Shown: piece by piece, positions 12,720 through 44,539 of the stretch
Numbering within the stretch: position 1 is the first letter of the stretch
Layout of the letters: each line of letters opens with the position of its first letter
Origin: Adhaeribacter aerolatus
Lineage (GTDB): Bacteria; Bacteroidota; Bacteroidia; Cytophagales; Hymenobacteraceae
Length of the DNA: 64,000 nt
Direction of reading: 5' to 3'
Assembly (NCBI RefSeq): GCF_007991635.1
Contig: NZ_BJYS01000003.1
Location: 1 to 64,000 of the forward strand
Position numbers and translations under genes: made by a program
Notes under the pieces: model-generated
Seen by the model: the letters and a program-made list of their open reading frames with translations, nothing else
Told to the model about the DNA's origin: nothing
Database searches by the model: none

Positions 12720-12731
12720 GGCTAACGGCGA

Positions 12732-13388: not shown

Positions 13389-13722
13389 GAGAGACAAATA
13401 AAACATGGTAGCATTTATGCCATATTATTTAAGAAAATTGGTGTAAGATGATTCTCTCTGCCAGAAATTGCTTTTTAAGGACGTTGGTACATCCGGCAAT
13501 ATTCATTCAGTCCCCATTATGTTTCTGCCGGGCTTAAGCAAAGTAAACCTGGCTATCAATTTTTAAGCATACCCTAAACTTTAGCGGTTATAACGCTGGT
13601 ATCCAAATAATATTTTGAAAGAACAGCCAGATGCTTATCTTGCAACTATAATATTTACCCTGCCTAAATTTATTTACCAACTAACTAATTAGTAAAATAA
13701 TTAAAACCAAAATAATTCAGAT
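13389..13722. other. Intergenic region upstream of the hexosaminidase gene
   Basis: About 330 AT-rich bases between repeat R1 and the GH20 gene. No ORF or RNA gene supported; presumably holds the promoter. Confidence 0.4.
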
Positions 13723-25631: not shown

Positions 25632-26504
25632 TTAAGAAATTTTTGCGTATTCTTTCCGGTATTCAAAAGGTGTCTTATGCATTAAATTTCTAAACTGTTT
25701 ATTAAAGTTCGATAAGGTATTAAAACCACATTTATAGCAAATCTGGGAAATAGATTCTTCTTCTTCCATCAGTAGTTTACAGGCCAGGCCAATCCGCAGT
25801 TCACTGATGAAAACCGAAAAAGGTTTGTTTGTGCGGGCCTTAAAATACCGGCTAAAGGTAGTCGGCGACATATTGGCCAGGGCAGCCACTTCTTCCAGCA
25901 TAATATTCCTTTTAAAGTTCTGTAAAATGTAATTATATACCCCACTCATCTTATCCTTATCGGTTTCTTTGGAAGTATTATAATAGCCAATGCTGGAAAT
26001 AAATTCTATTTCTTCGGCCTCGGCCAGCACCTGTAAAATGGAAAGCAGTTGAATAATGCTTTCAATTCCTTTCAGGGCCAGCAATTCCTGCATCATTTGA
26101 GTTAACCGCGCGGCAGTACCACCGTGAATCTGGATTCCCCGGGCGGCCTTTTCAAATAATTGCCTAATCAACAGCATCTCCTCTTTCTTCAGCGAACCCT
26201 CACCCAAAAAATTCTCCGGTATGTAAATAACAATGCCCTGCACCCGCAACGGGTTGGCTTTATCAAAATAAATCTCGTCGTTTCGCCAGAGGTGAGGCAG
26301 GTTGGGGCCGGTAAAAACCAGGTCGCCTTCCTGAAAATGACTTATATTATCGCCGATAAACCGGGTACCCGAGCTTTCCAGCACCACAAACAACTGGTAC
26401 TCCGAATGGAAGTGCCATTTTGTATCAAAACAAGGATCGTTCAGGTATTTGATAACAAAGGTTTTGGCCTCCGGAATTTGCGATTTATGTAATGCATGTT
26501 TCAT
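25632..26504 (-). CDS. AraC-family transcriptional regulator with cupin sensor
   Basis: A 290-residue regulator. The N-terminal cupin-type ligand-binding half (about 15-100) includes DTKWHFHSEYQLFVVLE and the GDLVFTGPNLPHLWRN segment. The C-terminal double helix-turn-helix (about 190-290) reads LANMSPTTFSRYFKARTNKP then ISQICYKCGFNTLSNFNKQF and ends with TPFEYRKEY, the classic AraC signature. Probably senses a sugar. Divergently transcribed from the large ThuA/dehydrogenase lipoprotein gene at 26645 with about 140 bp between starts, so it is a good candidate regulator of that gene and the following sugar-metabolism genes. Confidence 0.93.
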   Translation of the reverse strand: MKHALHKSQIPEAKTFVIKYLNDPCFDTKWHFHSEYQLFVVLESSGTRFIGDNISHFQEGDLVFTGPNLPHLWRNDEIYFDKANPLRVQGIVIYIPENFLGEGSLKKEEMLLIRQLFEKAARGIQIHGGTAARLTQMMQELLALKGIESIIQLLSILQVLAEAEEIEFISSIGYYNTSKETDKDKMSGVYNYILQNFKRNIMLEEVAALANMSPTTFSRYFKARTNKPFSVFISELRIGLACKLLMEEEESISQICYKCGFNTLSNFNKQFRNLMHKTPFEYRKEYAKIS

Positions 26505-26644
26505 AGCAACACTTATTTGCCTTAAAATAGCAGCAATTAACCTAAATTTGGCATAAAACAGTCAGATTTAGGCAAGATAAAGAATGTTTTTGATTTTTAT
26601 ATTTTGTATAATTGTATAATCTACACCACAATAATTCACCCGCA

Positions 26645-29600: not shown

Positions 29601-30211
29601 AACCAGTAGCCCAGGGCAAAGCCGCCGGCTTATTTAAACAGCCTTTAACCAACGGCGTACGGGTAGGCCTCGATGGTAAAAACGATGTTAAAGTTGGTGA
29701 TTACAAAGAGAATTTCAACCTGTCCAGCAGCGATATTGCCCAGGCTTTTCTGGAAATAGGCTCTACCAGCAATAACCAGTTAGCGAAAGCCGCAGGGGCC
29801 GCTGATGTAACCATTAATATAAAGGTGGTGAAAAACGAGATGAAGTTTGATAAAACTTCTTTTACGGTAAAAGCCGGCCAAACGGTAGAACTGGTACTGG
29901 ATAACCCTGATTTCATGCAGCATAACCTGGTATTGGTACAAGCCGGTACGGTACAAAAAGTAGGTGCTGCCGCCGATAAAATGGCTGGCGATCCGAAAGG
30001 GGCTGAGAAAAATTATGTTCCGGCCATGAAAGAAGTAATTGCGGCTACCGAATTAATTGATACCGATGGCCGTTCGGTTATCCGGTTTAAAGTACCGGAA
30101 AAAATAGGCGATTACCCGTACATCTGTACCTTCCCCGGTCACTGGCGCATCATGAACGGGGTCATGAAAGTAGTTGCCAATACCGGCTCCAGCAGCGCTA
30201 ACGCCCGTTAA
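26645..30211 (+). CDS. Large multidomain lipoprotein: ThuA, PVC-type dehydrogenase, HEAT-like, cupredoxin
   Basis: About 1188 residues from ATG 26645, which begins a lipoprotein signal (LSVIVLLLVLVLVNGC); the longer frame from 26612 would disrupt it. Domains in order: ThuA-like (about 35-245; GLLVYANHDKITPAQ, GFIPIHSASFCFRNS); PVC-type membrane-bound dehydrogenase beta-propeller (about 280-690; FDLQLFAAEPDVVNPISMAW, GRLWVVETVDYPNE, GPSNLKYGLDNRIW, DGAVWVADWYDFIIQHNPTP); a helical HEAT-like region (about 700-880); a jelly-roll-like segment (about 900-1050); and a C-terminal cupredoxin with a type-1 copper site (H in FMQHNLV, then C, H and M in CTFPGHWRIMNGVM). No CxxCH heme motif is present. 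Likely a periplasmic or surface oxidoreductase for a sugar derivative. The sugar epimerase and oxidoreductase genes downstream support this. Confidence 0.87.
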   Translation: MKNLSVIVLLLVLVLVNGCTKTGSSTSNLTGKEPRRIEILFLGHKSEHHNSAKYAPMLMTALFNKGINISYTDNPDDLNKENLAKYDGLLVYANHDKITPAQESALLEFVESGKGFIPIHSASFCFRNSEPVVKMIGGQFKSHKVGTFTTQIVDPKHPTMAGVTEFETWDETYVHDKLQADNQVLMVRDENGRKEPWTWVRTQGKGRIFYTAYGHDERTWGNPGFLKLVENGILWAVGDPLKKQLAKLKLPVLTYVDAQVPNYEKRDPAPKLQNPLSPAESMKLIQVPAGFDLQLFAAEPDVVNPISMAWDERGRLWVVETVDYPNEVREEDGVGDDRIKICEDTNGDGKADKFTIFADKLNIPTSIVFANGGIIISQAPVFIFLKDTNGDDKADVREVIMEGWGKSDTHAGPSNLKYGLDNRIWGTVGYSAYRGKDGDREIQFSSGLYNFRPDGKDLQYMGRTTNNTWGLGFNENFEVFNSTANGNHSDFFYMPEHYLKRVLVGGTAQAIRKNDGHANMPTVTDKIRQVDFHGGYTAAAGHNLYTARSFPKEYWNRIAFVCEPTGRVVHQAIQEPDGAGYKEVNGFNLMASSDDWMGPVHAEVGPDGAVWVADWYDFIIQHNPTPSPERGGYQAKNGKGNAYENPLRDHERGRIYRIVYKGAKPYTPVKLDRNNAATMVKALENDNMFWRTTAQRLLVETKNTSVLPELYKLVNNKNVDEIGLNAPAVHALWTMHGLGALNGSNNEAMQVAINALSHPAAGVRRAAAQVLPKNQQVLDGLIKSASLSDPNLNTRMTTFLAVSEMPASVETGRALYTASLNPENEKDPAVAQALFVAAATHHEGFRAGAKAQPETSGAGLANRILQSLDKDIRVLERWVGISPANAPDLVGKEITFRTNVTRRGRPGGGGNNNPNFTPPPFEGTLMAHGDKQNGYAVFIQDEKLNMRVNQNNKATTISAPLPEAQRFSVVAQLKQNGAMVLEVDGKPVAQGKAAGLFKQPLTNGVRVGLDGKNDVKVGDYKENFNLSSSDIAQAFLEIGSTSNNQLAKAAGAADVTINIKVVKNEMKFDKTSFTVKAGQTVELVLDNPDFMQHNLVLVQAGTVQKVGAAADKMAGDPKGAEKNYVPAMKEVIAATELIDTDGRSVIRFKVPEKIGDYPYICTFPGHWRIMNGVMKVVANTGSSSANAR

Positions 30212-30444: not shown

Positions 30445-31353
30445 ATGAGCTTAAACGTTAAATTTGGAGTGAGCACCTGGCTTTGGACCTCTCCTTTTAG
30501 TACCGAATCCGTTTCGCTGTTTCCGAAAATAAAAGCAATGGGCTACGATAAAGTGGAAATTGCCGTAGAGGATCCCACCCTTATTGATACCAGCCTTGTA
30601 AAAGCCGCCCTCCAGGAAAACGGCTTGGCAGCCATTATTTGCGGCGCCTTTGGCCCCACCCGCGACCTGACCAGCGAGGACGAAGCGCTGCACCAGAACT
30701 GCTTTAATTATATCCAAAGCTGCCTGAATATTTGTGTAGACCTGGACGCTACTTTCCTGGCCGGCCCCATGTATTCGGCTGTAGGCAAAGCCCGCCTGGT
30801 ATCGCCGGAACAGAAACAGGTTGAATGGAACCGGGCCGTTACCAACCTCCGCAAAGTCTGCGACATGGCCAGCGAAAAAGGTTTATTTATTGCCTTGGAG
30901 CCGCTTAACCGCTTTGAATCTGACTTAATTAATACCGCCGAAGATGTGGTAAGATTAGTTAACGACATTGACCACCCGGCTGCTAAAATTATTCTCGATG
31001 GTTTCCACATGAATATAGAAGAGCCGGACATTGAAGCGGCGATACGGGCAGCAGGAGATAAATTAATACATGTACAGGTTTCTGAAAACTACCGGGGCAC
31101 GCCGGGTACCGGCCAGACCCGCTGGGATGCTTTCCGCCGCGGCTTAGAAGCTATTAACTACACCGGCACCGTTTCCATCGAAAGCTTTACGCCGGCCATT
31201 AAGGAGCTGGCGGGGGCAGTTTGCATCTGGAAGCCCCTGGCTGAAAGCCAGGATAAATTTGCCGCCGAAGGCCTGCAGTTTTTAAAAAAATGGGCGGGTA
31301 ACCCGGAGCAGCAACCGGTAGCTGCCACCCAAACTGTAGCATCTAACTATTAA
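30445..31353 (+). CDS. Sugar phosphate isomerase/epimerase (tagatose/psicose 3-epimerase-like)
   Basis: A 302-residue cytosolic TIM-barrel enzyme of the xylose-isomerase-like superfamily (AP endonuclease family 2 fold), closest in pattern to D-psicose/D-tagatose 3-epimerases. Metal ligands and catalytic residues that I can place: E152 in ALEPLNRFES, D185 and H188 in ILDGFHMNIEE, R217 in SENYRGTPGTG, and E246 in SIESF. Where several characterised epimerases have a second metal-binding histidine in an HxH segment, this protein reads H209-V-Q211. It likely interconverts keto-sugars. It lies 23 bp upstream of a Gfo/Idh/MocA oxidoreductase gene, clearly an operon. Confidence 0.88.
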   Translation: MSLNVKFGVSTWLWTSPFSTESVSLFPKIKAMGYDKVEIAVEDPTLIDTSLVKAALQENGLAAIICGAFGPTRDLTSEDEALHQNCFNYIQSCLNICVDLDATFLAGPMYSAVGKARLVSPEQKQVEWNRAVTNLRKVCDMASEKGLFIALEPLNRFESDLINTAEDVVRLVNDIDHPAAKIILDGFHMNIEEPDIEAAIRAAGDKLIHVQVSENYRGTPGTGQTRWDAFRRGLEAINYTGTVSIESFTPAIKELAGAVCIWKPLAESQDKFAAEGLQFLKKWAGNPEQQPVAATQTVASNY

Positions 31354-31376: not shown

Positions 31377-32513
31377 ATGAGAAAAGACAAAATTAACGTT
31401 GCCATTATTGGCCTGGGGTTTGGAGCCGAATTTATTCCGATTTACCAGAAACACCCCAACGCCAACATGTACGCTATTTGTCAGCGTAACGAAGATAAAC
31501 TAAACGAGATTGGCGATGCCTTTGGTATTGAACACCGTTACACCGACTACGACGAATTGCTGAAAGACCCGAATGTTGATGCCGTTCATATTAATACGCC
31601 TATTCAGGCACACGCCGAACAATCTTTAAAAGCCATAAAAGCCGGCAAACACGTGGCTTGTACGGTGCCCATGGCTACTACCGTAGAAGAATGCCGCCAG
31701 ATTGTAGAAGCCGTAAAAGAAACCGGCCTGACTTACATGATGATGGAAACCGTTATCTACAGCCGGGAATTTTTGTTTGTGAAAGAAATGTACGAGAAAG
31801 GCGAACTGGGCAAAATTCAGTTTTTGCGGGCTTCGCACCAGCAGGAAATGGCGGGCTGGCCAGGTTACTGGGAAGGTTTGCCACCCATGCACTATGCCAC
31901 CCACTGCGTAGGTCCGGTATTAGCCCTGCCGCGGGCCGAAGCCGAATACGTTTCGTGCCTGGGCTCCGGCCGCATCGACGAAAATTTAATTCCGAAGTAC
32001 GGTTCTCCGTTTGCCATTGAAACCTGCCATATTAAATTCCGGAACTCCGATTTAGCGGCCGAAGTTACCCGTTCTTTATTCAATACCGCCCGCCAGTACC
32101 GCGAGAGCTTTGATGTATACGGCTCTAAAAAATCATTTGAATGGACGCTAATCGAACACGAAGGCAACGTAATTCACACGGGCGAGCAGCCGGAGCGTGT
32201 TAAAACACCGGATTACGCCCACCTGCTTCCGGAAGAGATTCAGTCTTTTACCTCTGCCGGGGTATACGACAGCGAAGGTAACCAGCATTTATCTTTTATC
32301 CAGGGTTCCGGCCACGGCGGTTCTCACCCGCACCTGGTACACGAATTTGTAAGTGCGTTGGTAGAAGGCCGCGAGCCTTTCCCAAATGCCGTGCAGTCGG
32401 CTAATATTACCTGCGTTGGCATTTTGGCCCACGAATCGGCTATGCAAGGAGGTAAAATTATGTACTTACCCGAGTTTACCCTTTCGGAAGTTTCCGAGGT
32501 GGCTACCTCGTAA
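31377..32513 (+). CDS. Gfo/Idh/MocA-family oxidoreductase
   Basis: A 378-residue NAD(P)-dependent sugar or inositol dehydrogenase-like protein. The N-terminal Rossmann fold has IIGLGFGAEFIP. The family's usual EKP motif (catalytic lysine) is here CTVPMATT at about 96-103, so the lysine is replaced. The C-terminal alpha/beta substrate domain follows (about 125-345; THCVGPVLALPRAEA). Absence of the EKP lysine suggests either a different chemistry or a subfamily with the lysine elsewhere. Likely works with the upstream epimerase on an oxidised sugar. Confidence 0.88.
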   Translation: MRKDKINVAIIGLGFGAEFIPIYQKHPNANMYAICQRNEDKLNEIGDAFGIEHRYTDYDELLKDPNVDAVHINTPIQAHAEQSLKAIKAGKHVACTVPMATTVEECRQIVEAVKETGLTYMMMETVIYSREFLFVKEMYEKGELGKIQFLRASHQQEMAGWPGYWEGLPPMHYATHCVGPVLALPRAEAEYVSCLGSGRIDENLIPKYGSPFAIETCHIKFRNSDLAAEVTRSLFNTARQYRESFDVYGSKKSFEWTLIEHEGNVIHTGEQPERVKTPDYAHLLPEEIQSFTSAGVYDSEGNQHLSFIQGSGHGGSHPHLVHEFVSALVEGREPFPNAVQSANITCVGILAHESAMQGGKIMYLPEFTLSEVSEVATS

Positions 32514-32780: not shown

Positions 32781-32807
32781 TTATAAATGTTAAAAAAACA
32801 TTTATAA
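32781..32807. promoter_or_regulatory. 27-bp palindrome, candidate AraR operator upstream of susC
   Basis: Perfect inverted repeat TTATAAATGTT / AACATTTATAA around AAAAA. The same palindrome, differing at only a few central bases, occurs at 43297-43323 upstream of a GH43 arabinanase gene. The two sites bracket a locus that also encodes an AraR/NrtR-type regulator. Site-regulator pairing is inference. Confidence 0.65.
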
Positions 32808-33078
32808 TATTAAATGTAAACATCCTAATATGTTGTTCGGCAACAAACATTTCAACGAACGGTTAAAACTATTGGTTTTTAATTAATTCGGCCTCGCCAG
32901 CATTCGGGGTGTCCACTTGGGAATCCAGTTTTTTCTTAGTAAATCGTTGATGAAAAAAAATAATGTTAAAATGACAATTATTACACCTCCCCCTTCCTGA
33001 CTTTAAGGATTATAATCAGGACGAATTTTTACCATTTAGCTTTTATCCACAATTAAATCAGTCCAAACAATTTCTTTT

Positions 33079-36000
33079 ATGAAAAACCAATTACCTAAAA
33101 ATTTACCTCCTTCCGGCGATCCCTTCTTCAGGCGGCTGTTCCGGAAAGCTGCTTTCACTTTAGTAATGGTTTCGACCATTGTGTTTATTTGTGCCAACCA
33201 GGCTGTATCCCAGGCCAGAACGCTTACCGGAACCGTTAAAGGCGAAACCGGCGAAGGCTTACCGGGTGTAACGGTGCTGGTGAAAGGTACGACTAATGGT
33301 ACTGCTACCAACCCGGAAGGCCAATTCTCTTTGGATGTTACTGATGGCGCAGGCACACTAGTAGTTTCTTTTATTGGTTATGTAACCCAGGAAATTCCGA
33401 TTAATAACCGCACTTCTGTTAGCATAACCCTGTTACCGGATGCGAAAGCGCTGGAAGAAGTGGTGGTAGTAGGTTATGGTACGCAAACCCGCGGTACGGT
33501 AACTGGTGCCGTAAGCCAGATTCAAGCCACTGATATTGCCCGTACTACGGCCACCACCGCTACTGGTGCTTTGGTTGGTAAGGTACAGGGTATTACCGCT
33601 CGCCAGGCCGATGCCCGTCCGGGCGCTGGTACCAGCATCCAAATTCGGAATATGGGTACGCCCCTGTATGTAATAGACGGGGTTACATCCGATGCCGGTC
33701 AGTTTAACAACCTGGGTATTGACGATATCGAAAGTGTTTCAATTTTGAAAGATGCTTCGGCCGCTATTTATGGTTTACGGGCTGCCAACGGCGTAATATT
33801 GGTTACTACCAAAAAAGGTAAAGCCGGTATGAAGCCTCAAATTAATGTGGGTGCCTATTACGGTATCCAAGATTTTACCCGTTATCCAAGACCAGCCAAT
33901 GCCTATCAGCACATGCGCGCCTTAGCTGAATCGGAGCAGAATCAGGGCAGAAACCCGGCAGGCGTTGTGACAAAAGAAGACCTGGAAAAATGGCGGGTAG
34001 GCACAGAAAAGGGGTTTATCAGCACCGACTACTATTCAGAGGTAATGGATAAATCTGCACCGCAATATAATTTAAATGCCAGCGCTTCCGGCGGCTCCGA
34101 AACCATGAATTATTATTTCTCGGTAAGCCACGTTAACCAGGATGCCATTATCAAAGATTACAACTTTAACCGGACTAATATTCAGGCAAATATTGATGCC
34201 GGGGTAGCCAAAGGTTTGCGGGTAGGTACTCAAATTTACGGTCGTTTGGAAGATCGCTCTCAGGCTGGGGTTCCGGGCTTGGATGATTATTTCAATCCAT
34301 TCCTAAGTATCTTTAGTATGTGGCCAACGGAGCGCCCTTACGCTAACGATAACCCTAATTATATTGCACAAAACCACAACGTAAACGTAAACCCAGCCAC
34401 TTATAAAAAGAGTGTTACAGGGTATATCGACGAAATCTGGCGGGGTGCGAAAGGTAACTTCTACGCCCAATATGACTTTAATTTTGGTTTAAGCGCTCGG
34501 GGTACTTACTCTTATAATTTCACCAATTTTGACTTTGATGGTTTTGAATATACCTACAACGCTTATTCTTATAACCCTACTACGGATACTTATAAGCTTG
34601 AATCAGGTAACCAGAACCCTTGGCGGGAGCGCCGCAAGCGCAATATTATAGACCGGTTTGCCCAATTTCAGTTAACCTACAACAAGCAATTCGGTGACCA
34701 CGGCTTATCAGCGGTAGCAGCGTACGAGCGTAACGATAGAAAAGATAATAATTTCATCGTACATACCGTACCGCCTAATAATTACATCCCCATCCAGTAC
34801 TTTGCAAACCAGGATTTTTTACTTGACGAATTCAATCAGGAAGCCCGCGCCGGTTATATTGCCCGTGTTAACTATAATTTTAAACAAAAATACCTGCTTG
34901 AAGTATTAGGCCGTTACGATGGTTCCTTCCTGTTCCGGAAGGACAGCCGCTGGGGCTTATTTCCAGGTATATCGGTTGGTTACCGTATTTCCGAAGAGGA
35001 CTTTATGAAAGAGCGCTTTGGTGGTTTCTTAAATGATTTGAAACTACGTGCTTCTTATGGTTTAACCGGTTCCGACCGCTTAAACAACGATGCTTATGTG
35101 GTAGATCCGTATAGCTACACTCCAGGTTATAACTGGGCCCAGGGCAGCGCCCTATTCGACGGAAACTATTACACAGGTGTTCGCCCGAGAGGTCTTCCAA
35201 TTACCACTTTATCCTGGATTAAAAACCATACCCGTAACGTTGGTTTCGACTTTACCATCTTTAACCGTTTAACTGGTCAGTTTGATATTTTCGAACGGAG
35301 ACGCAGCGGTTTACCAGCTACTTTAACCGATGTTTTGTTACCAACCGAAGTAGGTTACACCTTGCCTCAAGCCAATTTACTAAAAGAATCTAACCGGGGT
35401 GTAGAAGGTGCTTTAACTTACACTGGTAAAATTCAGGATGTTACTTTCTCCATAGGTGGCAATGCTACACTGGCTCGCAGATGGGATATCTATCAACGTT
35501 ATAATCCGCAATGGGGTAACTCCTGGCAGGAATACCGCGATGCCTGGGAGGATCGATGGGGCAGCGTAAACTGGGGATACGAAGTGGTTGGTCAGTTCCA
35601 ATCGCAGGAACAAATTGATAACTACGATGTAGATAACGACGGACAAGGCAACCGTACGCACCTACCCGGCGACTTAATTTACAAAGATACTAATGGCGAT
35701 AAAGTTATCAATAATCTGGACGAAAGACCGATTGGTTTCCAGGAAGGTGCCAACCCCTACATGAGCTTTGGTTTAAATACCAGTGTGGGTTGGAAAGGTT
35801 TTAACCTGGCTATAGACTTTGCGGGCGCTACTTTGCAGACTTTCCGCCGGGAAGTAGAGATGAAAATTCCGTTCCAGAACAATGGCACCTCTCCTAATTA
35901 TATGTTCGAAGACCGCTGGCACCACGAAGATCCTTACAATAACGATAGCCCGTGGATTGCGGGCAAGTATCCTGCCATTAGAAAAGATCAAAACAGCCAC

Positions 36001-36264
36001 GTTAATTTCTCGCGTAGAAGCAATTACTGGAATACTAACGTTAGTTATGTACGGTTGCGGAACCTCGAATTAGGCTATACCATTCCGCAAGCCATTGTTA
36101 CCCGTTTTGGCCTGAACCGGCTGCGGGTATACGTTACCGGTACCAACCTCTTCTCCATTGATAATACGAAAGAATTTGGTTTAGACCCGGAAGTTTCCTC
36201 GAATGGTGGTTTGGTGTATCCGCAGCAAAAAGTATTTACCGCTGGTTTTAATTTAAGCTTATAA
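33079..36264 (+). CDS. susC: SusC/RagA-family TonB-linked outer membrane transporter
   Basis: A 1061-residue outer membrane TonB-dependent receptor that imports oligosaccharides with its SusD partner. Order: signal peptide (FTLVMVSTIVFICANQAVSQ); carboxypeptidase-D regulatory-like beta domain (about 47-125; GLPGVTVLVKGTTNGTATNP); TonB box region ALEEVVVVGYGTQTRGTVTG; plug domain (about 135-235; SIQIRNMGTPLYVIDGV, SVSILKDASAAIYGLRAANG); 22-strand barrel; C-terminal phenylalanine-type ending (FTAGFNLSL). SusD follows 15 bp downstream. The palindrome at 32781 upstream and the nearby GH43 genes point to arabinose-containing glycans. The leader of about 270 bases may be regulated. Confidence 0.96.
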   Translation: MKNQLPKNLPPSGDPFFRRLFRKAAFTLVMVSTIVFICANQAVSQARTLTGTVKGETGEGLPGVTVLVKGTTNGTATNPEGQFSLDVTDGAGTLVVSFIGYVTQEIPINNRTSVSITLLPDAKALEEVVVVGYGTQTRGTVTGAVSQIQATDIARTTATTATGALVGKVQGITARQADARPGAGTSIQIRNMGTPLYVIDGVTSDAGQFNNLGIDDIESVSILKDASAAIYGLRAANGVILVTTKKGKAGMKPQINVGAYYGIQDFTRYPRPANAYQHMRALAESEQNQGRNPAGVVTKEDLEKWRVGTEKGFISTDYYSEVMDKSAPQYNLNASASGGSETMNYYFSVSHVNQDAIIKDYNFNRTNIQANIDAGVAKGLRVGTQIYGRLEDRSQAGVPGLDDYFNPFLSIFSMWPTERPYANDNPNYIAQNHNVNVNPATYKKSVTGYIDEIWRGAKGNFYAQYDFNFGLSARGTYSYNFTNFDFDGFEYTYNAYSYNPTTDTYKLESGNQNPWRERRKRNIIDRFAQFQLTYNKQFGDHGLSAVAAYERNDRKDNNFIVHTVPPNNYIPIQYFANQDFLLDEFNQEARAGYIARVNYNFKQKYLLEVLGRYDGSFLFRKDSRWGLFPGISVGYRISEEDFMKERFGGFLNDLKLRASYGLTGSDRLNNDAYVVDPYSYTPGYNWAQGSALFDGNYYTGVRPRGLPITTLSWIKNHTRNVGFDFTIFNRLTGQFDIFERRRSGLPATLTDVLLPTEVGYTLPQANLLKESNRGVEGALTYTGKIQDVTFSIGGNATLARRWDIYQRYNPQWGNSWQEYRDAWEDRWGSVNWGYEVVGQFQSQEQIDNYDVDNDGQGNRTHLPGDLIYKDTNGDKVINNLDERPIGFQEGANPYMSFGLNTSVGWKGFNLAIDFAGATLQTFRREVEMKIPFQNNGTSPNYMFEDRWHHEDPYNNDSPWIAGKYPAIRKDQNSHVNFSRRSNYWNTNVSYVRLRNLELGYTIPQAIVTRFGLNRLRVYVTGTNLFSIDNTKEFGLDPEVSSNGGLVYPQQKVFTAGFNLSL

Positions 36265-36279
36265 TTTTTAGCGTGATTT

Positions 36280-38145
36280 ATGAAAAGTATATATAAGTAT
36301 TTAATATTAGGAGCCTCTTTATTGCCGCTTGCGGCCTGTGAAGATGATTTTTTAGAGCGGCAGTCGCCCACGCTCATCCTTGAGGATCAGGTATGGAATG
36401 ATCCAAAGATGATTACCAGTGTGCTGGCTAATTATTACGATCGCTTACCAACTTCTCTTTCTACGCTTTCGAACTGGGCCGATTTTGCTGCTTATGACGA
36501 AGCCATGTGGTCGGGTAATAACGATGACCGGAATAACCTGGTAACTTATGGCACCAACCGCTGGGAGTTGTGGGATTACGGCCTGATCCGGGACATTAAC
36601 TTGGCCATGGAAAACATGGATAAATTTGGAACCGCTTTAACCGCCGACCAGAAAACCCAATTTCAATCAGAATTGCGCTTTTTGAGAGCTTACACGTATT
36701 TCGAGCACGTTAAAAGAATGGGTGGGGTACCCATTATTACCAATCAGCTTATTTACGATTTAAGCGGCAACGTAACTCCCCTGCAGAAGCCCCGCAATAA
36801 GGAAGAAGAAGTTTATGATTTTATAGCTAAGGAACTGGATGAAATTAAAAACACAATAGGCAACGGTATCAGCCAGACCCGGGCTAATAAATTTACCGTA
36901 CTGGCCTTAAAAAGCCGCGCTATGTTATACGCCGGCTCTTTAGCTAAATATAATAACCTGATGGGTGCACCTATTACCACACCGGGTGGGGAAGTAGGAA
37001 TTCCGGCTGCCAGAGCTACTGATTATTTTACCAAATCTTTGGCGGCCTCCAAAGAGATTATTAGCAGTAACACTTACACTTTGTACAACCGGAACCCTGA
37101 CATAGGAGAGAATTTTTTTGATGCTATCACAAAGAAATCTAATAACCCGGAAGTAATATTTGCGCAGGACTTTTCTGTTACAAAAGATAAACGGATTTCG
37201 TTTACCTATGATAATATAGCCCGCAATGTTCGAGAGGATAACCTTTCTTCTTCTAACGTTACGCCAATATTAAACCTGGTGGAAGATTTTGAATATCTGG
37301 ACGGCACCCCAGGCATTTTGAAAAACCGGACTGCCGATAACAGTGATTATATCTACTACAACCGGCCACAGGATATTTTTGCGAATAAGGATGCCCGTTT
37401 ATACGGAACCGTTATTTATCCAGGCACTTCATTCCGAGGCCTTCCTGTTGAAATGCAGGCTGGTGTTAAAGTTTGGACAGGTTCTAACTACAACACGATA
37501 GAAGGCGATCAATTAGGGGCTAATTATAGCCCCCCCAAATATCCTAACGGGGATGGCAAATTACTTACCGGCTCTTCTGGTCCTCACCGCTCCATCACGG
37601 AGGTTTCTAATTCTGGTTTCTATATGCGTAAATATATCGATCCAACGCCCATGTCGAGTACCCGGGGTGTCCGGAGCGAAATGTGGTGGATCAGATTCCG
37701 TTATGCCGAAATTTTATTAAATGCCGCCGAAGCTGCCCTGGAATTAAATATGGCACCCGAAGCTTTAACACATGTAAATAAGGTACGGGAAAGAGCCGGT
37801 TTCGGACCTAACAGCCTTACAACTTTAACCATGGCCAGGATTCGTAACGAGCGGCGGGTTGAGTTAGCCTTTGAAGACCACCGCGTTTGGGATTTAAAAC
37901 GTTGGCGAATTGCCCACGAATTATGGAATGGTAGTGCCAGCAACCCTAATGCCATCCCGTTGGCCTTGTATCCTTACCGGGTAGTTCGTCCGGGGCATCC
38001 GACCCATGATAAAATTGTTTATGACAAGTTAACTGCTCCCCGGTTCCGGGCACCACGTAACTTCCAGTTAAATAATTATTATTCGGCCATACCGCAAGGT
38101 ACCCTTAACAATAATCCCCTAATTACCAGAAATCCATTCCAATAA
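36280..38145 (+). CDS. susD: SusD/RagB-family nutrient-binding outer membrane lipoprotein
   Basis: A 621-residue lipoprotein, the lid partner of the SusC transporter that binds glycans at the cell surface. The signal peptide ends GASLLPLAAC, followed by acidic residues (EDDF) typical of surface-exposed lipoproteins. The N-terminal SusD-like domain (about 25-200; FRSELRFLRAYTYFEHVKRM, with FLRAY and VPIIT-type helices) and C-terminal RagB domain (about 270-621; RYAEILLNAAEAALELNMAP, VNKVRERAGF, RRVELAFEDHRVWDLKRW) are both clear. Middle gene of an operon with susC (15-bp gap) and a DUF3823 gene (9-bp gap). Confidence 0.95.
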   Translation: MKSIYKYLILGASLLPLAACEDDFLERQSPTLILEDQVWNDPKMITSVLANYYDRLPTSLSTLSNWADFAAYDEAMWSGNNDDRNNLVTYGTNRWELWDYGLIRDINLAMENMDKFGTALTADQKTQFQSELRFLRAYTYFEHVKRMGGVPIITNQLIYDLSGNVTPLQKPRNKEEEVYDFIAKELDEIKNTIGNGISQTRANKFTVLALKSRAMLYAGSLAKYNNLMGAPITTPGGEVGIPAARATDYFTKSLAASKEIISSNTYTLYNRNPDIGENFFDAITKKSNNPEVIFAQDFSVTKDKRISFTYDNIARNVREDNLSSSNVTPILNLVEDFEYLDGTPGILKNRTADNSDYIYYNRPQDIFANKDARLYGTVIYPGTSFRGLPVEMQAGVKVWTGSNYNTIEGDQLGANYSPPKYPNGDGKLLTGSSGPHRSITEVSNSGFYMRKYIDPTPMSSTRGVRSEMWWIRFRYAEILLNAAEAALELNMAPEALTHVNKVRERAGFGPNSLTTLTMARIRNERRVELAFEDHRVWDLKRWRIAHELWNGSASNPNAIPLALYPYRVVRPGHPTHDKIVYDKLTAPRFRAPRNFQLNNYYSAIPQGTLNNNPLITRNPFQ

Positions 38146-38154
38146 TTTAAAATC

Positions 38155-38856
38155 ATGAAACTTAGCATATATTCTTATTTAACCGTACTCCTGGCTATAA
38201 TGATGGCCGGCTGTGAATACGATAATTACGAGCCACCAAAATCAACCTTAACCGGAAGAGTGGTTTACAACGATCAGGTGATTGGCGTTAGATCAAATGC
38301 TGTCCGGCTGGAGTTACGACAGCCCGGCCCGGACTATCCGTTATGGCGGACTACCCCAATTAACGTTAATATTGCGCAGGACGGCACCTTTTCCGCTGTG
38401 TTATTTGATGGTAACTACAAACTTACCCGGGTACGCGGTAATGGGCCGTGGGTTGATCAAACAGACACAATAAATGTGGAAGTAAGAGGCACGGCTGTAG
38501 TAGATGTTCCCGTTAATCCGTTCTTTGTAATCAAAAATGAGCAGATTAAGAAGGGTACCAGTACTATCGATGCCACCTTTAACCTGCAACAGGTAAATAC
38601 AACGCGTCAGTTAGAACGGGTAAACCTGTATATCAGCAGCACTAATATTGTAGATGCAACAAACCAAAGAGCCAGTGCTGAAAAAGCAGCTTCTGGAATA
38701 ACTAACCTAAGTCAGCCGATAACCTTAAATGTCAATTTATCGAGCTTACCAGCTGCAGTAGCCGGAAAAGAATATGTTTTTGCCCGCATTGGTGTAAAAA
38801 CTGTGGGTATTCAGGAATTAGCGTATAGTGCCCCGTTAAAAATTCAGTTAAAATAG
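38155..38856 (+). CDS. DUF3823 lipoprotein of the PUL operon
   Basis: A 233-residue lipoprotein (signal peptide ends LLAIMMAGC). DUF3823 proteins follow SusC/SusD pairs in many Bacteroidota polysaccharide utilisation loci; they are surface lipoproteins thought to bind glycan or cap the complex. Visible features: N-terminal beta-sandwich (TLTGRVVYNDQVIGVRSNAV, GPDYPLWRTTPINVNI, FSAVLFDGNYKLTRV) and a C-terminal Ig-like segment (VNLYISSTNIVDATN). It lies 9 bp after susD, so it is translated from the same mRNA, and a strong terminator follows. Confidence 0.85.
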   Translation: MKLSIYSYLTVLLAIMMAGCEYDNYEPPKSTLTGRVVYNDQVIGVRSNAVRLELRQPGPDYPLWRTTPINVNIAQDGTFSAVLFDGNYKLTRVRGNGPWVDQTDTINVEVRGTAVVDVPVNPFFVIKNEQIKKGTSTIDATFNLQQVNTTRQLERVNLYISSTNIVDATNQRASAEKAASGITNLSQPITLNVNLSSLPAAVAGKEYVFARIGVKTVGIQELAYSAPLKIQLK

Positions 38857-38879
38857 GCCCCAAGTACCTCTAAATAAGA

Positions 38880-38931
38880 AGCATTATACCATAGGTTTAC
38901 CTTTTGGTATAATGCTTTTTATTTTTTTATC
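38880..38931 (+). terminator. Rho-independent terminator of the susCD operon
   Basis: AGCATTATACC pairs with GGTATAATGCT, followed by TTTTATTTTTTTAT, 24 bases after the last stop codon. Confidence 0.85.
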
Positions 38932-39113
38932 GTTCTTGCATTTTTAATTTACTAAAATGCCCGACTAATCCGTTTAAAGTAAATCCGTTTGCGGATAAAT
39001 ACCTTAAACTTGGGTTTGGTTGGTTCGTTTTTAAATATTTGTTTAGCTTTAAACCATTATCAAGAGAAGACTTAAACTTAATTCTAAATTCCTAACCCAG
39101 AGAATCTGCTTAT

Positions 39114-40322
39114 ATGAAAAAAAGTAATTTGCGTTACACGCTGCTGCTGCTGGCCGGCTTAGGCCTGGCTGCTCCTACCCTGTACAGTTGCAACAGCAAA
39201 AGCACCAAAACCGAAGAAAATACCACCTCAACCAGTAACGAAGAAACCAACGCTAACATGAGCATTCAGAAAGAAAGCTTTGGCAAAACCAAAGACGGCA
39301 CCGAAGTACAACTGTATACCCTGCGCAACGAAAAAGGCGTGGAAGTTAAAATCACCAACTACGGTGGCATTGTTACCTCTTTAATCACGCCGGATAAAAA
39401 CAATAAACCCGGCGACGTGGTGCTGGGCTTCGACAACGTAGAAGGTTACCAAAGCGATGCTTATTTAAAAAGTGGCCCTTACTTTGGTGCTCTGATTGGC
39501 CGCTATGGCAACCGTATTGCCAAAGGCCAGTTTACCCTGGATGGAAAAACCTATACCCTGGCTAAAAACAACGGCGCCAACCACCTGCACGGCGGCATAA
39601 AAGGGTTTGATAAAGTAGTGTGGCAGGCCGAAGAAGTACCGGGCCAGCAGGCGCTGAAACTGACTTACGTGAGCAAAGACGGCGAAGAAGGCTACCCCGG
39701 TACCTTAACTACCCACGTTACTTACACCTTAACGCCCGATAACGAGCTGCGCATCGACTACGAAGCTACTACCGACAAAGCCACCCCAATAAACCTGACC
39801 AACCACAGCTATTTTAACTTAGCTGCCGGCCAGGCACCCGATGCTTTGGGTCATATTCTAACCATTAATGCAGATCGTTACACGGTGGTAGATGCCAGCC
39901 TGATACCAACCGGCGAATTGCGCCCGGTAAAAGGTACGGTAATGGACTTTACCCAACCAACTGCTATTGGCGCCCGCATTGCTCAGGTAGAGGGTGGTTA
40001 CGACCACAACTATGCGTTAAGCAATACCGATGGCTCTTTGAAGCAGGCCGCTACCGTGTATGAACCTACCAGCGGCCGGGTAATGGAAGTATCTACCACT
40101 GAACCCGGCATTCAGTTTTATTCCGGCAATTTTCTGGATGGTTCTTTAACCGGTAAAAACAACACGGCCTACAAAAAGCATTACGGTTTCTGCCTCGAAA
40201 CCCAGCACTTCCCGGATTCACCGAACCAACCAAGCTTCCCGTCTACTATTTTGAAACCAGGCGATACTTATAAAACCAGTACCATCTACAAGTTTTCGGT
40301 AAAAGACCAGGCAGCCCAATAG
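39114..40322 (+). CDS. galM: Aldose 1-epimerase (mutarotase) lipoprotein
   Basis: A 402-residue mutarotase that interconverts alpha and beta anomers of aldoses. Lipoprotein signal ends LAAPTLYSC (C26), so unlike cytosolic GalM it acts in the periplasm or at the surface, where it would accelerate use of sugars released from polysaccharide. The linker after the lipobox is Ser/Thr/Lys-rich. Family signatures: KITNYGGIVTSLITPDKNN, NHLHGGIKGFDKVVWQ, INLTNHSYFNLAG (catalytic His), VEGGYDHNYAL, and CLETQHFPDSPNQPSFPST with the catalytic Glu. Convergent with the GH43 gene downstream; both use the hairpin at 40346. Confidence 0.94.
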   Translation: MKKSNLRYTLLLLAGLGLAAPTLYSCNSKSTKTEENTTSTSNEETNANMSIQKESFGKTKDGTEVQLYTLRNEKGVEVKITNYGGIVTSLITPDKNNKPGDVVLGFDNVEGYQSDAYLKSGPYFGALIGRYGNRIAKGQFTLDGKTYTLAKNNGANHLHGGIKGFDKVVWQAEEVPGQQALKLTYVSKDGEEGYPGTLTTHVTYTLTPDNELRIDYEATTDKATPINLTNHSYFNLAAGQAPDALGHILTINADRYTVVDASLIPTGELRPVKGTVMDFTQPTAIGARIAQVEGGYDHNYALSNTDGSLKQAATVYEPTSGRVMEVSTTEPGIQFYSGNFLDGSLTGKNNTAYKKHYGFCLETQHFPDSPNQPSFPSTILKPGDTYKTSTIYKFSVKDQAAQ

Positions 40323-40345
40323 CCACAGGTGGTTTTTAAACTAAT

Positions 40346-40386
40346 ATAGCCCGGTTAGTTAAAACTAACCGGGCTATTATTTTATT
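40346..40386. terminator. Bidirectional terminator between galM and GH43 gene
   Basis: ATAGCCCGGTTAGTT pairs with AACTAACCGGGCTAT (13-15 bp stem, loop AA) with T-rich flank on the plus side and an A-rich loop. It lies between convergent genes. Confidence 0.85.
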
Positions 40387-40400
40387 AGACTAAGTATTTG

Positions 40401-41504
40401 TTAAGGGTTCGGGCTGCGCTGGAGATTCACAACCGGCCAGCCGTCCTTAGCCCAGGTTAAGGTTTCGATGCGTAATTTAGATTTACCGTTATCGGCTGCT
40501 TCGTACCCGTGAAACACCAGGTAATCTTTTTTATCGAAGGTATACACCGAATTGTGCCCCACGCCATACCAATCTTTGTTACCTTCCAGCACCAAAGTAC
40601 CACCGCCCTTCGACAGGGACACACCGTTTTTATCCAGGTAAGGACCTTGCACCTCTTTTGCCCGGCCCACAATCATTTTGTAGGTACTGTTTACCCCTTT
40701 GCAGCAATAATCGATGGAGGCAAACAGGTAATAATATTTATCTTTTTTAAAAATAAAAGGAGCCTCAATGGCATTGCCGCCTGCATCAACCGGATTATCG
40801 CCTATTGCCGGTGGATTCACGTTCCCTGTTTCTTTCTTCCGGCTGGCTATGGTAGGAATTTTATTTGAGTCTTCGGCAATGCTTAACCGGTCTTTACTTA
40901 ATTTCACCAGCTTTAAACCATCCCAGAAAGAGCCAAACGACATCCAGGCGGTGCCGGATTTATCCGCAATAATATTCGGGTCGATGGCATTCCAGTTGGT
41001 TTTGCCGGGATACGACTGAATGACTTTACCGTGGTCGACCCATTTAAAATCTTTATCGGTGGGGTGCAAAGTGGTATTGGTAGCTACGCCAATGGCCGAA
41101 GTATTTTTCCCGAAAGCCGAAACCGAATAGTAAAGGTAATATTTGCCATTATGATAGCTGATATCGGGCGCCCAGATGTGGTTACGGAAAGTGGGAACCG
41201 CCTCCAGCGCCCATTCGGGTGCGGTGGCAAAAACCGGACTTTCGCGCTTCCAGTTCTCCATATCTTTAGAAGACCAAACCGAAATTCCCCGCCCGGTGCA
41301 AAATAAATAATAGGTATCGTCCTGCTTAATCATTACCGGGTCGTGTACCTGAATATTTTTATAAAGCTTGTTAGGTTCGTATTGAACAGGCTGCTGATTA
41401 GCCGGAGCCGGGGGTTGCCCGCCCGCCGGCGGTGTGGTTTGAGCCTGGCTTTCCTGCAGCACAAAAGCCAGGGCAGGAATAAAAAGTAAATGTTTATATT
41501 TCAT
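40401..41504 (-). CDS. GH43 arabinan endo-1,5-alpha-L-arabinosidase-like enzyme
   Basis: A 367-residue exported five-bladed beta-propeller hydrolase of glycoside hydrolase family 43. Signal peptide (LLFIPALAFVLQESQA) and a Pro/Gly-rich linker. The catalytic triad of the family is recognisable: base D55 in VHDPVMI, D175 in NAIDPNII, and acid E247 in NAIEAPFIF. Other signatures are HIWAPDISYHNGKYYLYYSV and GSFWDGLKLVKL. The pattern matches arabinan endo-1,5-alpha-L-arabinosidases, but GH43 also contains xylosidases and galactan exo-enzymes, so the substrate is inferred partly from the neighbouring AraR-type regulator and second GH43 gene. Confidence 0.85.
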   Translation of the reverse strand: MKYKHLLFIPALAFVLQESQAQTTPPAGGQPPAPANQQPVQYEPNKLYKNIQVHDPVMIKQDDTYYLFCTGRGISVWSSKDMENWKRESPVFATAPEWALEAVPTFRNHIWAPDISYHNGKYYLYYSVSAFGKNTSAIGVATNTTLHPTDKDFKWVDHGKVIQSYPGKTNWNAIDPNIIADKSGTAWMSFGSFWDGLKLVKLSKDRLSIAEDSNKIPTIASRKKETGNVNPPAIGDNPVDAGGNAIEAPFIFKKDKYYYLFASIDYCCKGVNSTYKMIVGRAKEVQGPYLDKNGVSLSKGGGTLVLEGNKDWYGVGHNSVYTFDKKDYLVFHGYEAADNGKSKLRIETLTWAKDGWPVVNLQRSPNP

Positions 41505-41709
41505 AAATATGAATATCTGTTTATTGATCGTAGAGATTTAAGAAGGTCTCTTTTAAGTGAATAGCACATGACCTCCTTACTTTTTAGGCCTTGGCTTCCA
41601 CCATTGTCAGGCAGAAGGAACCTTTTGGCCGACTGCTCCTTAGTTTCTGCCTGCCCGAAAGGAGTTAATATCAGCAATCTGAATATTTATTGAATATTTT
41701 TAGTATAAT

Positions 41710-43188
41710 TTACAAGGGCTTCTTTCCCCAAATGGCTGCACCGGCATTATTTAAACCGGTAAATAAGAGCGCCGGCTTTTTGTTTTCCCAATCGCGGCCC
41801 CGGACTACCCGCACTTTATCGGTAAAGCCATTGCTCCATTTCATTTCCAGCCAGGGCATTTGGTAAGTCCAGTTGCTGTTGGCATCGGCGTTTAAAGTAC
41901 CATCGGCGTTAATTTTTAACGGAAAAGCCACCTGGAAATCCGGCGTAGTTTGTTCGTTGGCGTAACCCGGCACAACCCGGTAACCCAGCACAATTTGCTC
42001 CCAGTTACCCACCAGTTCGGTTGGGGCTACTGGCGTTTGGCTGATGCCTGCGAACCGCTCCGGCGAAACAATGGGCCAGCCATCCGGAGTCCAGAATATT
42101 TCGCGCACGTGCAGCACCATAAAATATTTGTTTACGCCGGGTCGCCCCTGGTGCGCCATATAAAATTGCCCATTCTCTTGGAAAACTGCCGGGTGCGACA
42201 CGCCCTGCCAACCGCCGTGGCCGGTAAACTGGTAAGGTGCCAGAATCATCGGGCCATTATCCTGGTTGTTGTTTATGTCATTTCCGGCGAAATCGTAAAA
42301 AGGGCCTTCCGGCGAATCGGACCGGCCCACCCGTACGTTGTACTTGGTTTCGAGCCAGTCGTAAGAAATAAAAAGGTAATATTTCTTTAGTTCCGGGTTA
42401 TAAATAATCTCGGGACCTTCGATATTGCCGTTAATTTGTCCGCCGGTAAAACCCCGCTGGGCTATACGCTTGCCCTTATCGTTGGGGGTAGCCGCCAGGC
42501 CGGTAGCCGCATTCAGTTTCAGGAGGTAAATGCCATCCCACGCCGAACCGTAATATAGCCAATGCTGGCCCGCGGCATCCACGATTACCGAAGGGTCAAT
42601 GGCATTGGTCATTGGAATATCATCGCGGGAAGTAACAACCAATCCCTTTTCGGTCCAGGGACCTTCGGGCGAAGCCGCCGTTGCCAAACCAATGGTACTG
42701 AGTTTAGGCGTTGGCGACGATAACGAATAATATAACCGGTATTCGTTGTTCACTTTTAAGACGTAAGGCGCCCATAAAGAAGAAAAAGGCGTACCGCCAT
42801 TCTGTTTAATATAGTTGGTGCCCTGCTGGGGTAAATCAGGAAACACCAAACCCACAAACTGCCATTGAATTAAATCTTTTGATTTCCGAACCTGAATACC
42901 CGGCCGAACCGTGATGCTGAAAGCCACATCGGTGCTGTAACAGTAGAAATATTCACCACTTTTAATAATTGACGGGTCATGCACATTATAAGGGCCCCAC
43001 TGTGCCACATTGCTGAAAGGCGCCAGTTCGGCGTAGGTATCGTTTATAGAATTTATATCGAAAGCAGCCGGATCCGGGGTTTGGGGAGTAGGCTTAATAT
43101 TGATCTCCGAATCTTTTTTGCAGGAAACCGTGCCAAAGGTTAGCCAGGCACAGAAAAGAAATAAATAAATTTTAACCTGGCTTTTCAT
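41710..43188 (-). CDS. GH43 arabinan endo-1,5-alpha-L-arabinosidase-like lipoprotein
   Basis: A 492-residue GH43 enzyme with a lipoprotein signal (C23 in TFGTVSC). Catalytic residues: D71 in NVHDPSII, D198 in NAIDPSVIV, E257 in GNIEGPEII. Blades include SLWAPYVLKVNNEYRLYYSL and GSAWDGIYLLKL. After the catalytic propeller (about 60-385), a C-terminal beta domain resembling the endo-arabinanase C-terminal domain follows (about 400-492; WKMQL-like fold with TPDFQVAFPLKINADGTL). Its promoter region carries the 27-bp palindrome at 43297 shared with susC. A 205-bp gap separates it from the other GH43 gene, which it may or may not share a transcript with. Confidence 0.9.
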   Translation of the reverse strand: MKSQVKIYLFLFCAWLTFGTVSCKKDSEINIKPTPQTPDPAAFDINSINDTYAELAPFSNVAQWGPYNVHDPSIIKSGEYFYCYSTDVAFSITVRPGIQVRKSKDLIQWQFVGLVFPDLPQQGTNYIKQNGGTPFSSLWAPYVLKVNNEYRLYYSLSSPTPKLSTIGLATAASPEGPWTEKGLVVTSRDDIPMTNAIDPSVIVDAAGQHWLYYGSAWDGIYLLKLNAATGLAATPNDKGKRIAQRGFTGGQINGNIEGPEIIYNPELKKYYLFISYDWLETKYNVRVGRSDSPEGPFYDFAGNDINNNQDNGPMILAPYQFTGHGGWQGVSHPAVFQENGQFYMAHQGRPGVNKYFMVLHVREIFWTPDGWPIVSPERFAGISQTPVAPTELVGNWEQIVLGYRVVPGYANEQTTPDFQVAFPLKINADGTLNADANSNWTYQMPWLEMKWSNGFTDKVRVVRGRDWENKKPALLFTGLNNAGAAIWGKKPL

Positions 43189-43837
43189 GTACTAAGCTTT
43201 CATTTAATCCGGTGCGTAGCTTAATCTTTTAGCCTTTAAGTAAAGCATTAGCGCAAGCAACCTCCCTTGTTTGGCCGGTAAACAAATATAAATAATTTAT
43301 AAATGTAAAAATAACATTTATAAATTTTCTTAAGCAGAAGACGCATTTAATATGCGGTCCATTACTTTGCTGTTTTAGCCTGCGTCAATAACAAACATCA
43401 AACCTAAAATATTAATCTTCAATATTTAAAACCACTAAATAATAAAGCAGCGCTTTATCCGGATACAGAATGCTTTTACCGTTGGAAGTTAAAACATACC
43501 TAAAAGTGTTCTTTACGGAGCCGGTATATCTCTTTAATCTTTCGGTCTATTTCCCAGGATTAGGCCGGTAAACCGCTATTCAGCGATATTTAGCTATTAA
43601 CAGACCAAATAATGGATTAAAATGATTAGAATTTAAGTTATACTGCCTTTTACCGAATAAAGTAGAACCGCTAAGCCAAAGGAAATTGGAAAATATGCCA
43701 GAAAATTACAATTTGCAGCTATCAATTCCGGATTCGAAGGAATAAATTGTTTATTCTTATTCTGGAAAGCACTCTTATTCCTATTCTTTAATTTTATTCG
43801 CTGGGATACTGTTTTTAAAGCAGGTTTTTAAAACATC
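43189..43837. other. Divergent intergenic region with candidate operator
   Basis: 649 AT-rich bases between the divergent GH43 and araR-like genes. It contains the 27-bp palindrome at 43297-43323. No further ORF or RNA gene supported. Confidence 0.6.
43297..43323. promoter_or_regulatory. 27-bp palindrome, candidate AraR operator upstream of GH43 gene
   Basis: Inverted repeat TTATAAATGT / ACATTTATAA around AAAAATA, nearly identical to the palindrome at 32781-32807 upstream of susC (same arms, same 27-base length). It is 109 bases upstream of the GH43 start codon and 515 bases upstream of the AraR-like gene. Confidence 0.65.
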
Positions 43838-44539
43838 ATGAAATATTCGGGTCAAACAAGATTTCTGATTGCAGTTGATTGTATTGTTTTTGGTTTTGAT
43901 GGCGAAAAATTTAAAGTATTACTCATTCAGAGAGGCTTTGCTCCCGAAAGAAAGAAATGGAGTTTAATGGGCGGTTTTATTCAGCCGGAAGAAAGCCTGG
44001 AAATAGCGGCCAACCGCGTGCTGAAACAATTAACCGGCTTAGAGGGTGTATATTTAGAGCAATTACAGGTTTTTGGCGATCCTCACCGCGATCCGGTTGA
44101 AAGAACCCTGGCTGTGGCTTACTTTGCCTTAATCGATATTCAGCAGTACGAAAAGCAGATTAACCACGAGTACAATGCCGAGTGGTTTCTGCTGGATGAA
44201 ATGCCCCAGCTTATTTTCGACCACGAACAAATGGTAGAAGCGGCCAAGAAGCGGCTGCGCTACAAAGCCGCTTTACACCCGGTTTTGTTTGAATTACTGC
44301 CCGAAAAATTTACCATACCGCAGCTAAAAAACCTTTACGAGGGCTTATACGGCACTACTTTCGATAAGCGCAACTTCAGCCGCAAGGTATTATCGACGGG
44401 TTTGCTGGTTAAACAAAAGGACAAAGACAAAGGCAACTCCCGCAAAGGCGCTTTTTATTATAAGCTGGACAAGCAGAAATATTCCGAAAACTTCCAGGCC
44501 TTCCTGAAATTTATTCCTAATCCGGATAAGTTTCTGTAA
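43838..44539 (+). CDS. araR: Nudix-fold transcriptional regulator, AraR/NrtR type
   Basis: A 233-residue cytosolic protein: N-terminal Nudix domain (about 10-140) plus C-terminal winged-helix DNA-binding domain (about 150-230; KFTIPQLKNLYEGLYGTTFD, KRNFSRKVLSTGLLV). The Nudix box is GGFIQPEESLEIAANRVLKQ: the REuxEE glutamates needed for pyrophosphate hydrolysis are replaced (V61, Q64, L65), so it should bind a ligand rather than hydrolyse one, as in NrtR-family regulators. In Bacteroides a regulator of this architecture, AraR, controls arabinose use. Here it sits beside two arabinanase-like genes and a SusCD locus, so AraR-like repression relieved by arabinose is the likely role. The symbol is by context, not proof. 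Confidence 0.8.
   Translation: MKYSGQTRFLIAVDCIVFGFDGEKFKVLLIQRGFAPERKKWSLMGGFIQPEESLEIAANRVLKQLTGLEGVYLEQLQVFGDPHRDPVERTLAVAYFALIDIQQYEKQINHEYNAEWFLLDEMPQLIFDHEQMVEAAKKRLRYKAALHPVLFELLPEKFTIPQLKNLYEGLYGTTFDKRNFSRKVLSTGLLVKQKDKDKGNSRKGAFYYKLDKQKYSENFQAFLKFIPNPDKFL

Follow-up and report, generated by a model that had tools for sequence, protein, structure and literature searches.

Two palindromes beside arabinan genes of Adhaeribacter aerolatus as probable operators of a neighbouring AraR-type regulator

The closest described system is that of BtAraR (BT0354) from Bacteroides thetaiotaomicron, an L-arabinose-responsive repressor which binds two predicted promoter regions and is released from them by L-arabinose (PMC4666351). 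The same study assigns Arg34, Arg86 and His131 to the sugar and Lys179, Arg180, Asn181, Lys184, Lys204 and Arg205 to the DNA, calls these six DNA contacts absolutely conserved in the AraR orthologues studied, and quotes three sites of the form GTGT-N7-ACAC (PMC4666351). NrtR of Shewanella oneidensis is described there as an ADP-ribose-responsive repressor that leaves the DNA on ligand binding and has its targets in NAD metabolism (PMC4666351). XylR (BT0791) has been predicted to act in xylose use (PMC3878776). An AraR-type arabinan regulon in Adhaeribacter or its relatives was not found in the literature searched; the AraR regulon papers that were found concern Bacteroides.

The stretch of DNA analysed here, called the window, comprises positions 1-64000 of contig C3 of the 6.68-Mb A. 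aerolatus genome. A first-pass annotation had reported two near-identical palindromes with the same arms and spacing, O1 and O2, the second of them beside a gene for a Nudix-type AraR-like regulator, and had predicted an arabinan regulon and its operator. The coordinates, the 10-bp arms and the 7-bp spacers of both palindromes were verified. The features of the locus were as follows.

32781-32807, no strand: O1, predicted AraR operator, an exact palindrome 271 bp upstream of the susC start
32960-32980, no strand: tentative AraR site, a degenerate second one upstream of susC, ATAATGT-N7-ACAATTA, 3 of 14 core positions off, found by eye
33079-36264, forward strand: SusC-type TonB-dependent transporter, TIGR04056 above cut-off
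36280-38145, forward strand: SusD-type lipoprotein, Pfam SusD_RagB
38155-38856, forward strand: DUF3823 protein, Pfam DUF3823 and DUF3823_C
39114-40322, forward strand: aldose 1-epimerase (mutarotase), Pfam Aldose_epim
40401-41504, reverse strand: GH43 protein, Pfam GH43, closest model endo-arabinanase AbnA (NF053747, 312.6 bits, below its cut-off of 480)
41710-43188, reverse strand: GH43 protein, Pfam GH43 and GH43_C, closest model BT0367 endo-arabinanase (NF049888, 468.3 bits, below its cut-off of 800)
43283-43290, reverse strand: TATATTTG, possible Bacteroidota -7 promoter box, 6 bp from O2
43297-43323, no strand: O2, predicted AraR operator, an exact palindrome 108 bp upstream of the GH43 gene 41710-43188
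43838-44539, forward strand: araR, NrtR-family regulator with a Nudix-like domain and a winged helix, by Pfam and PDB matches

The AraR-like character of the regulator was supported by profile searches, by its nearest solved relative and by its gene neighbours. The protein encoded at 43838-44539 matched the Pfam families NUDIX PF00293 (51.0 bits), NrtR_WHD PF21906 (75.4 bits) and AraR_C PF19368 (32.9 bits; cut-off 23.8), all above cut-off, and its best PDB match was BtAraR 5bs6, with an E value of 8.5e-64 and 44.7% identity over 215 residues. It shares with BtAraR the architecture of a Nudix-like domain and an NrtR winged helix, the L-arabinose-contacting residues Arg34, Arg86 and His131, and half-sites 7 bp apart (PMC4666351). 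Tyr5, Phe36, Phe49 and Phe129 are likewise kept, as are Lys179-Arg180-Asn181 of the recognition helix; three of the six DNA contacts are thus identical, whereas the other three are Lys/Arg swaps (K184R, K204R and R205K), and a further difference from BtAraR is V92T. The Nudix catalytic signature, given as GX5EX7REUXEEXGU (PMC4666351), is impaired in the window protein, where it reads GFIQPEESLEIAANRVLKQLTGL, with RE changed to RV and EE to QL. NrtR of S. oneidensis also combines a Nudix domain with a winged helix, but is 35.1% identical to the window protein over 194 residues and has Gly179, Arg204 and Pro205. In a phylogenetic tree, BtAraR, the window AraR and its orthologues were placed apart from three further NrtR proteins of the genome (98/92, with a long-branch warning and with BT0791 absent from the tree). 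The counterpart in Adhaeribacter rhizoryzae is 96% identical to the window AraR, and its gene adjoins araB with a gap of 682 bp. As araR and araB are on separate contigs in A. aerolatus, this locus appears to have been split in the genome or in its assembly. In contrast to the BtAraR system, araR here lies by GH43 and susCD genes, araB-araD-araA are on another contig, and no tandem pair of sites 3 bp apart was found at O1 or O2 with the 27-bp pattern.

O1 reads TTATAAATGT-TAAAAAA-ACATTTATAA and O2 reads TTATAAATGT-AAAAATA-ACATTTATAA; the arms are identical and the spacer sequences differ. With up to three mismatches allowed, the 27-bp palindrome occurred in the window only at these two places, and it did not occur in 100 dinucleotide shuffles. 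The genome scan proposed with the first-pass annotation was carried out and yielded O1 and O2 as the sole exact 27-bp copies in 6.68 Mb. At up to three mismatches there were 6 places in the whole genome versus 4 for a reversed control, indicating that weaker 27-bp matches are near background and that only strong matches carry weight. The conserved part proved to be shorter than the 27 bp first described, namely a 21-bp core, TAARTGT-N7-ACAYTTA. Three exact copies of this core are present in the genome (reversed control, none), and they precede the susC gene of the window, a GH43 gene of the window and a GH43 gene on contig C21. When two mismatches were allowed, 100 cores were found versus 149 in the reversed control, i.e. 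without enrichment. A low-stringency pattern, AANTGT-N7-ACANTT, was also tried and rejected, with 8 places in the genome and 8 in the reversed control. Since such counts are at or below the control, weak matches alone mean nothing. In A. rhizoryzae (G019), the counterpart of O1 differs only in its last two bases, while the surrounding leader has changed more; the counterpart of O2, at the same place, is weaker, both of its arms being altered and the spacer differing at one position.

Several further elements were observed around the two palindromes. Both halves of the degenerate sequence at 32960-32980 are kept in A. rhizoryzae except for the outermost base, but matches of such quality are frequent and the case for a second AraR site at this position is weak. 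The block 32936-32985 between O1 and susC, which includes AATGT-N7-ACAATT, has changed far less than the surrounding leader in A. rhizoryzae and may represent a promoter or a second operator. The box TATATTTG beside O2 was assigned on the basis of TAnnTTTG, which we take to be the -7 promoter consensus of Bacteroidota, and is kept in A. rhizoryzae, the one relative compared; TAnnTTTG was not found at a fixed distance from the core over 44 site-gene pairs. The DUF3823 protein may be a surface lipoprotein belonging to this locus, and the aldose 1-epimerase is perhaps AraM-like in role; in a genome of the same genus (G029), an exact core lies 33 bp upstream of a homologue 54% identical to this epimerase. 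Upstream of susC are genes for a ThuA-DUF7133-plastocyanin protein (26612-30211), a xylose-isomerase-like TIM barrel protein (30445-31353) and a Gfo/Idh oxidoreductase (31377-32513). An exact core precedes a ThuA-DUF7133 gene in two relatives (G002 and G074), and none was found before that of the window.

Co-occurrence of the core with the regulator was investigated in a family set of 80 genomes, in which an AraR orthologue was called at E 1e-40 or better. The exact core was present in 25 of the 26 genomes with an orthologue and in 1 of the 54 without (Fisher p 1.8e-18, the test treating related genomes as independent), and the link was also seen within genera: in genus g3 the core was found in 6/6 genomes with the orthologue versus 1/17 without, and in genus g6 in 12/12 versus 0/4. 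Two genomes were discordant, G034 (78% complete) with the regulator only and G060 with the site only. With the reversed control, 7 matches were obtained, spread over 6 genomes of the set. A second test drew on 442 loci from named genomes, each around a relative of the regulator, and covered the best 80 of them. These 80 contained 15 exact cores in 13 loci, and neither the reversed control nor cores with a 6- or 8-bp spacer occurred in them. For 22 of these 80 loci the families were determined via the tree and were chiefly Hymenobacteraceae, Sphingobacteriaceae and Chitinophagaceae. At least six of the 80 loci (L157-L161 and L165) come from genomes of the family set, so that the two tests partly overlap.

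The core says less when the whole class is considered, and there it is not specific to the regulator. Among 198 genomes, A. aerolatus included, 42 carried the core, namely 5 of the 8 with an orthologue and 37 of the 190 without (Fisher p 0.012). The exact core was absent from the orthologue-bearing genomes G114, G158 and G253, and G192 had two cores on contigs other than those of its AraR matches. The distance between core and araR varied: in G093 a core lies 114 bp upstream of araR, in G179 three of four cores lie within 5 kb, and the two cores of G100 share a contig with araR at a distance of 9-14 kb.

Target genes in the loci of relatives were named by their best blastp match to 21 reference proteins, among which the labels SusC_C22 and SusC_C37 are based on reading of the sequence and on the SusD gene that follows. 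Of 51 exact cores, 43 were situated at most 400 bp upstream of GH51, GH43, GH127, mutarotase, xylulokinase, araR or SusC genes, with GH51 as the target of 19 of these; SusC targets weigh little, because SusC genes are abundant and form a loose class. A position more than 40 bp inside an open reading frame was found for one of the 51. The remaining eight comprised cores before an arabinofuranosidase of a second type (584 bp), an alpha/beta hydrolase, a transketolase, a transaldolase, two ThuA-DUF7133 genes and an exonuclease (G060), and one core inside a peptidase M13 gene. The kinds of target shared with the BtAraR regulon are arabinose catabolism, GH43, arabinofuranosidase, SusCD and mutarotase (PMC4666351).

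In the A. aerolatus genome, nine one-mismatch cores were found, three inside open reading frames of at least 100 aa and six outside. The only clear arabinan target among them was an arabinofuranosidase gene on contig C31 (Pfam Alpha-L-AF_C), with the core 90 bp upstream of its start; the encoded protein is presumably a GH51 enzyme. One-mismatch cores before susC-type genes on contigs C22 (beside GH92), C37 and C4 were considered doubtful as sites, and further ones lie on contigs C23 and C24. Contig C4 also carries genes for AraB ribulokinase, AraD ribulose-5-phosphate epimerase and AraA arabinose isomerase, each identified by NCBIfam above cut-off, and a weaker site is located about 20 bp upstream of araB, one off the inner 12 and two off the 14 core positions. 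Equivalents of this site were present at the same place in five congeners. When 23 araB upstream regions, that of A. aerolatus included, were searched with a loosened pattern and at most one mismatch, 17 had a site (the one in L068 chance-like) and 6 had none. The proposed arabinan regulon was thus supported by the co-occurrence with the regulator and by the target genes, and it probably extends past the two operons to a GH51 gene, another GH43 gene and araB-araD-araA.

Very probably, O1 and O2 are operators through which the neighbouring AraR controls arabinan and arabinose use. From the analogy with BtAraR we infer DNA binding, repression and L-arabinose as the releasing signal. An AraR dimer would occupy the TAARTGT-N7-ACAYTTA core when L-arabinose is absent, with one RTGT half-site read by each of its winged helices, and would keep expression of the susCD-DUF3823-epimerase genes and of the GH43 genes low. 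L-arabinose derived from arabinan would bind to the Nudix-like domain, the DNA-binding domains would move and the promoters would be freed, whereupon the transporter and hydrolases of the window and the GH51, further GH43 and araB-araD-araA products of other loci would be made together. The location of O1, 271 bp from the susC start codon, speaks against a simple block, being far away unless the leader is long.

The sites might be operators of another regulator, either one of the three further NrtR proteins, encoded on contigs C34, C35 and C16, or an AraC-type or hybrid two-component protein. An AraC-type gene is present in the window at 25632-26504; a hybrid two-component regulator was not found among the 11 window proteins that were profile-scanned. 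The C34 paralogue is 43.7% identical to BtAraR, nearly as close as the window AraR, and keeps four of the six DNA contacts (the window AraR keeps three) together with Arg34, Arg86 and His131, so that the window AraR cannot be picked out by its residues only. Of the same family as the XylR type, the C34 protein lies beside a xylulokinase-like gene (TIGR01312, 291.8 bits, below the cut-off of 380.25), and in one relative (G056) an exact core precedes a xylulokinase-like gene. The C35 paralogue adjoins a kinase gene, rhamnulokinase-like on reading of its sequence, and is situated 5.4 kb from rhaT, before which a weak site was observed. All three paralogues, however, differ from BtAraR at the base-reading position 179, where they carry Thr, Gln or Pro; the C34 protein, by which the XylR type was judged here in place of BT0791 itself, has Thr179 and is 37.2% identical to the window AraR. 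What the residues do not decide between the window AraR and the C34 paralogue is decided by co-occurrence in genomes. At E 1e-60, orthologues of the C34 protein were found in 8 of the 80 genomes, all of genus g1. Relatives of the C35 protein and of the C16 protein were found in one and the same group of 19 genomes, 12 of which carry the core. In this comparison, which covers the NrtR proteins, the C34 orthologue was missing from 19 of the 26 core-bearing genomes and the C35 and C16 relatives from 14, while AraR was missing from one. The window AraR accounts for the sites better than any of the three NrtR paralogues, and control by another regulator is considered very improbable.

The ligand is a separate matter, as a protein reading DNA in the manner of AraR could respond to an arabino-oligosaccharide, L-ribulose, D-xylulose 5-phosphate or D-xylose. 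Neighbours of the pocket vary, with Phe36 replaced by Leu, Ile or Met in several orthologues and V92 replaced by Thr or Ala throughout the 23 sequences of the branch. Arg34, Arg86 and His131 are common to the C34 paralogue and are consequently no proof of arabinose as the ligand, and a broader role in pentose use is suggested by relatives in which cores precede genes of the transketolase, transaldolase and xylulokinase-like kinds. Such a change of ligand is nevertheless improbable, given that the window AraR keeps all three residues that hydrogen-bond L-arabinose in BtAraR, that the targets are mostly of the arabinan type and that the xylulokinase-like gene of A. aerolatus adjoins the C34 paralogue instead. 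It is extremely improbable that the palindromes act in leaders as RNA hairpins or weak terminators. Their folding does exceed that of shuffled sequences (z -3.82 and -4.42 for the two palindromes), but the stems are A/U-rich, and 28 of the 49 exact cores that have a gene starting no more than 400 bp away would have an A-C stem mismatch on the gene-sense strand, which is harmless to a protein site and not to a hairpin.

The predicted operator of the window AraR is slightly changed from that of BtAraR. The half-site is RTGT, compared with GTGT on both sides in the three sites quoted in the BtAraR study (PMC4666351), and over 42 distinct cores from the loci of relatives its first base was A in 68% and G in 32%, the positions set by the search pattern being invariant by construction. 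Of the 49 exact cores lying no more than 400 bp before a gene start, 28 had the A-type half distal and the G-type half proximal to the gene, 4 had the reverse arrangement and 17 had A-type halves on both sides, these counts being inflated by orthologous GH51 sites. A tentative and rather unlikely extension of the AraR reading would combine a changed DNA code (either A or G where Lys179 of BtAraR reads its base, together with the Lys/Arg swaps at 184, 204 and 205) with a rule of orientation and a switch that is pentose-wide instead of arabinan-specific, the last on account of the cores at transketolase, transaldolase and xylulokinase genes in some members.

The proposed regulon is of a known kind, in a group for which none was found described. 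For Adhaeribacter and related bacteria, the analysis gives a testable operator and a list of targets in the use of arabinan, and suggests that the AraR logic of Bacteroides reaches Hymenobacteraceae, Sphingobacteriaceae and Chitinophagaceae. The altered half-sites, together with the changed DNA-contact residues, offer a natural case of an NrtR winged helix changing its DNA code.

AraR-like genes in loci without recognised ara genes, many of them from Mucilaginibacter, were set aside as not AraR proper; all four Mucilaginibacter proteins included in the tree (L181, L195, L213 and L227) have Asp at BtAraR position 179, and araB, araD and araA were not recognised in their loci. Perhaps these regulators have another specificity. 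In L181 two ABC exporter genes precede the regulator, and in L213 a rhamnosidase-type gene does. No exact core was found in 19 closely examined loci without recognised ara genes, some of them from other genera; near the regulator, a one-mismatch site was present in L235 and two-mismatch sites in L185, L193 and L235. A locus from a record titled Beijerinckiaceae (L225) has the order araR-araB-araD-araA and a regulator 71% identical to the window AraR, which may reflect transfer or a misbinned contig. In G024, two exact cores are arranged in tandem, 32 bp apart (L127, positions 2167-2219), before a SusC homologue 71% identical to that of the window. In L077 (positions 12264-14866), araB-araD-araA and a gene for a sodium/solute symporter are followed by two more genes, which encode a DnaQ-type exonuclease and a protein of cNMP-CBS-DUF294 type, and genes matching this pair in size were observed downstream of araA in L056 and L059.
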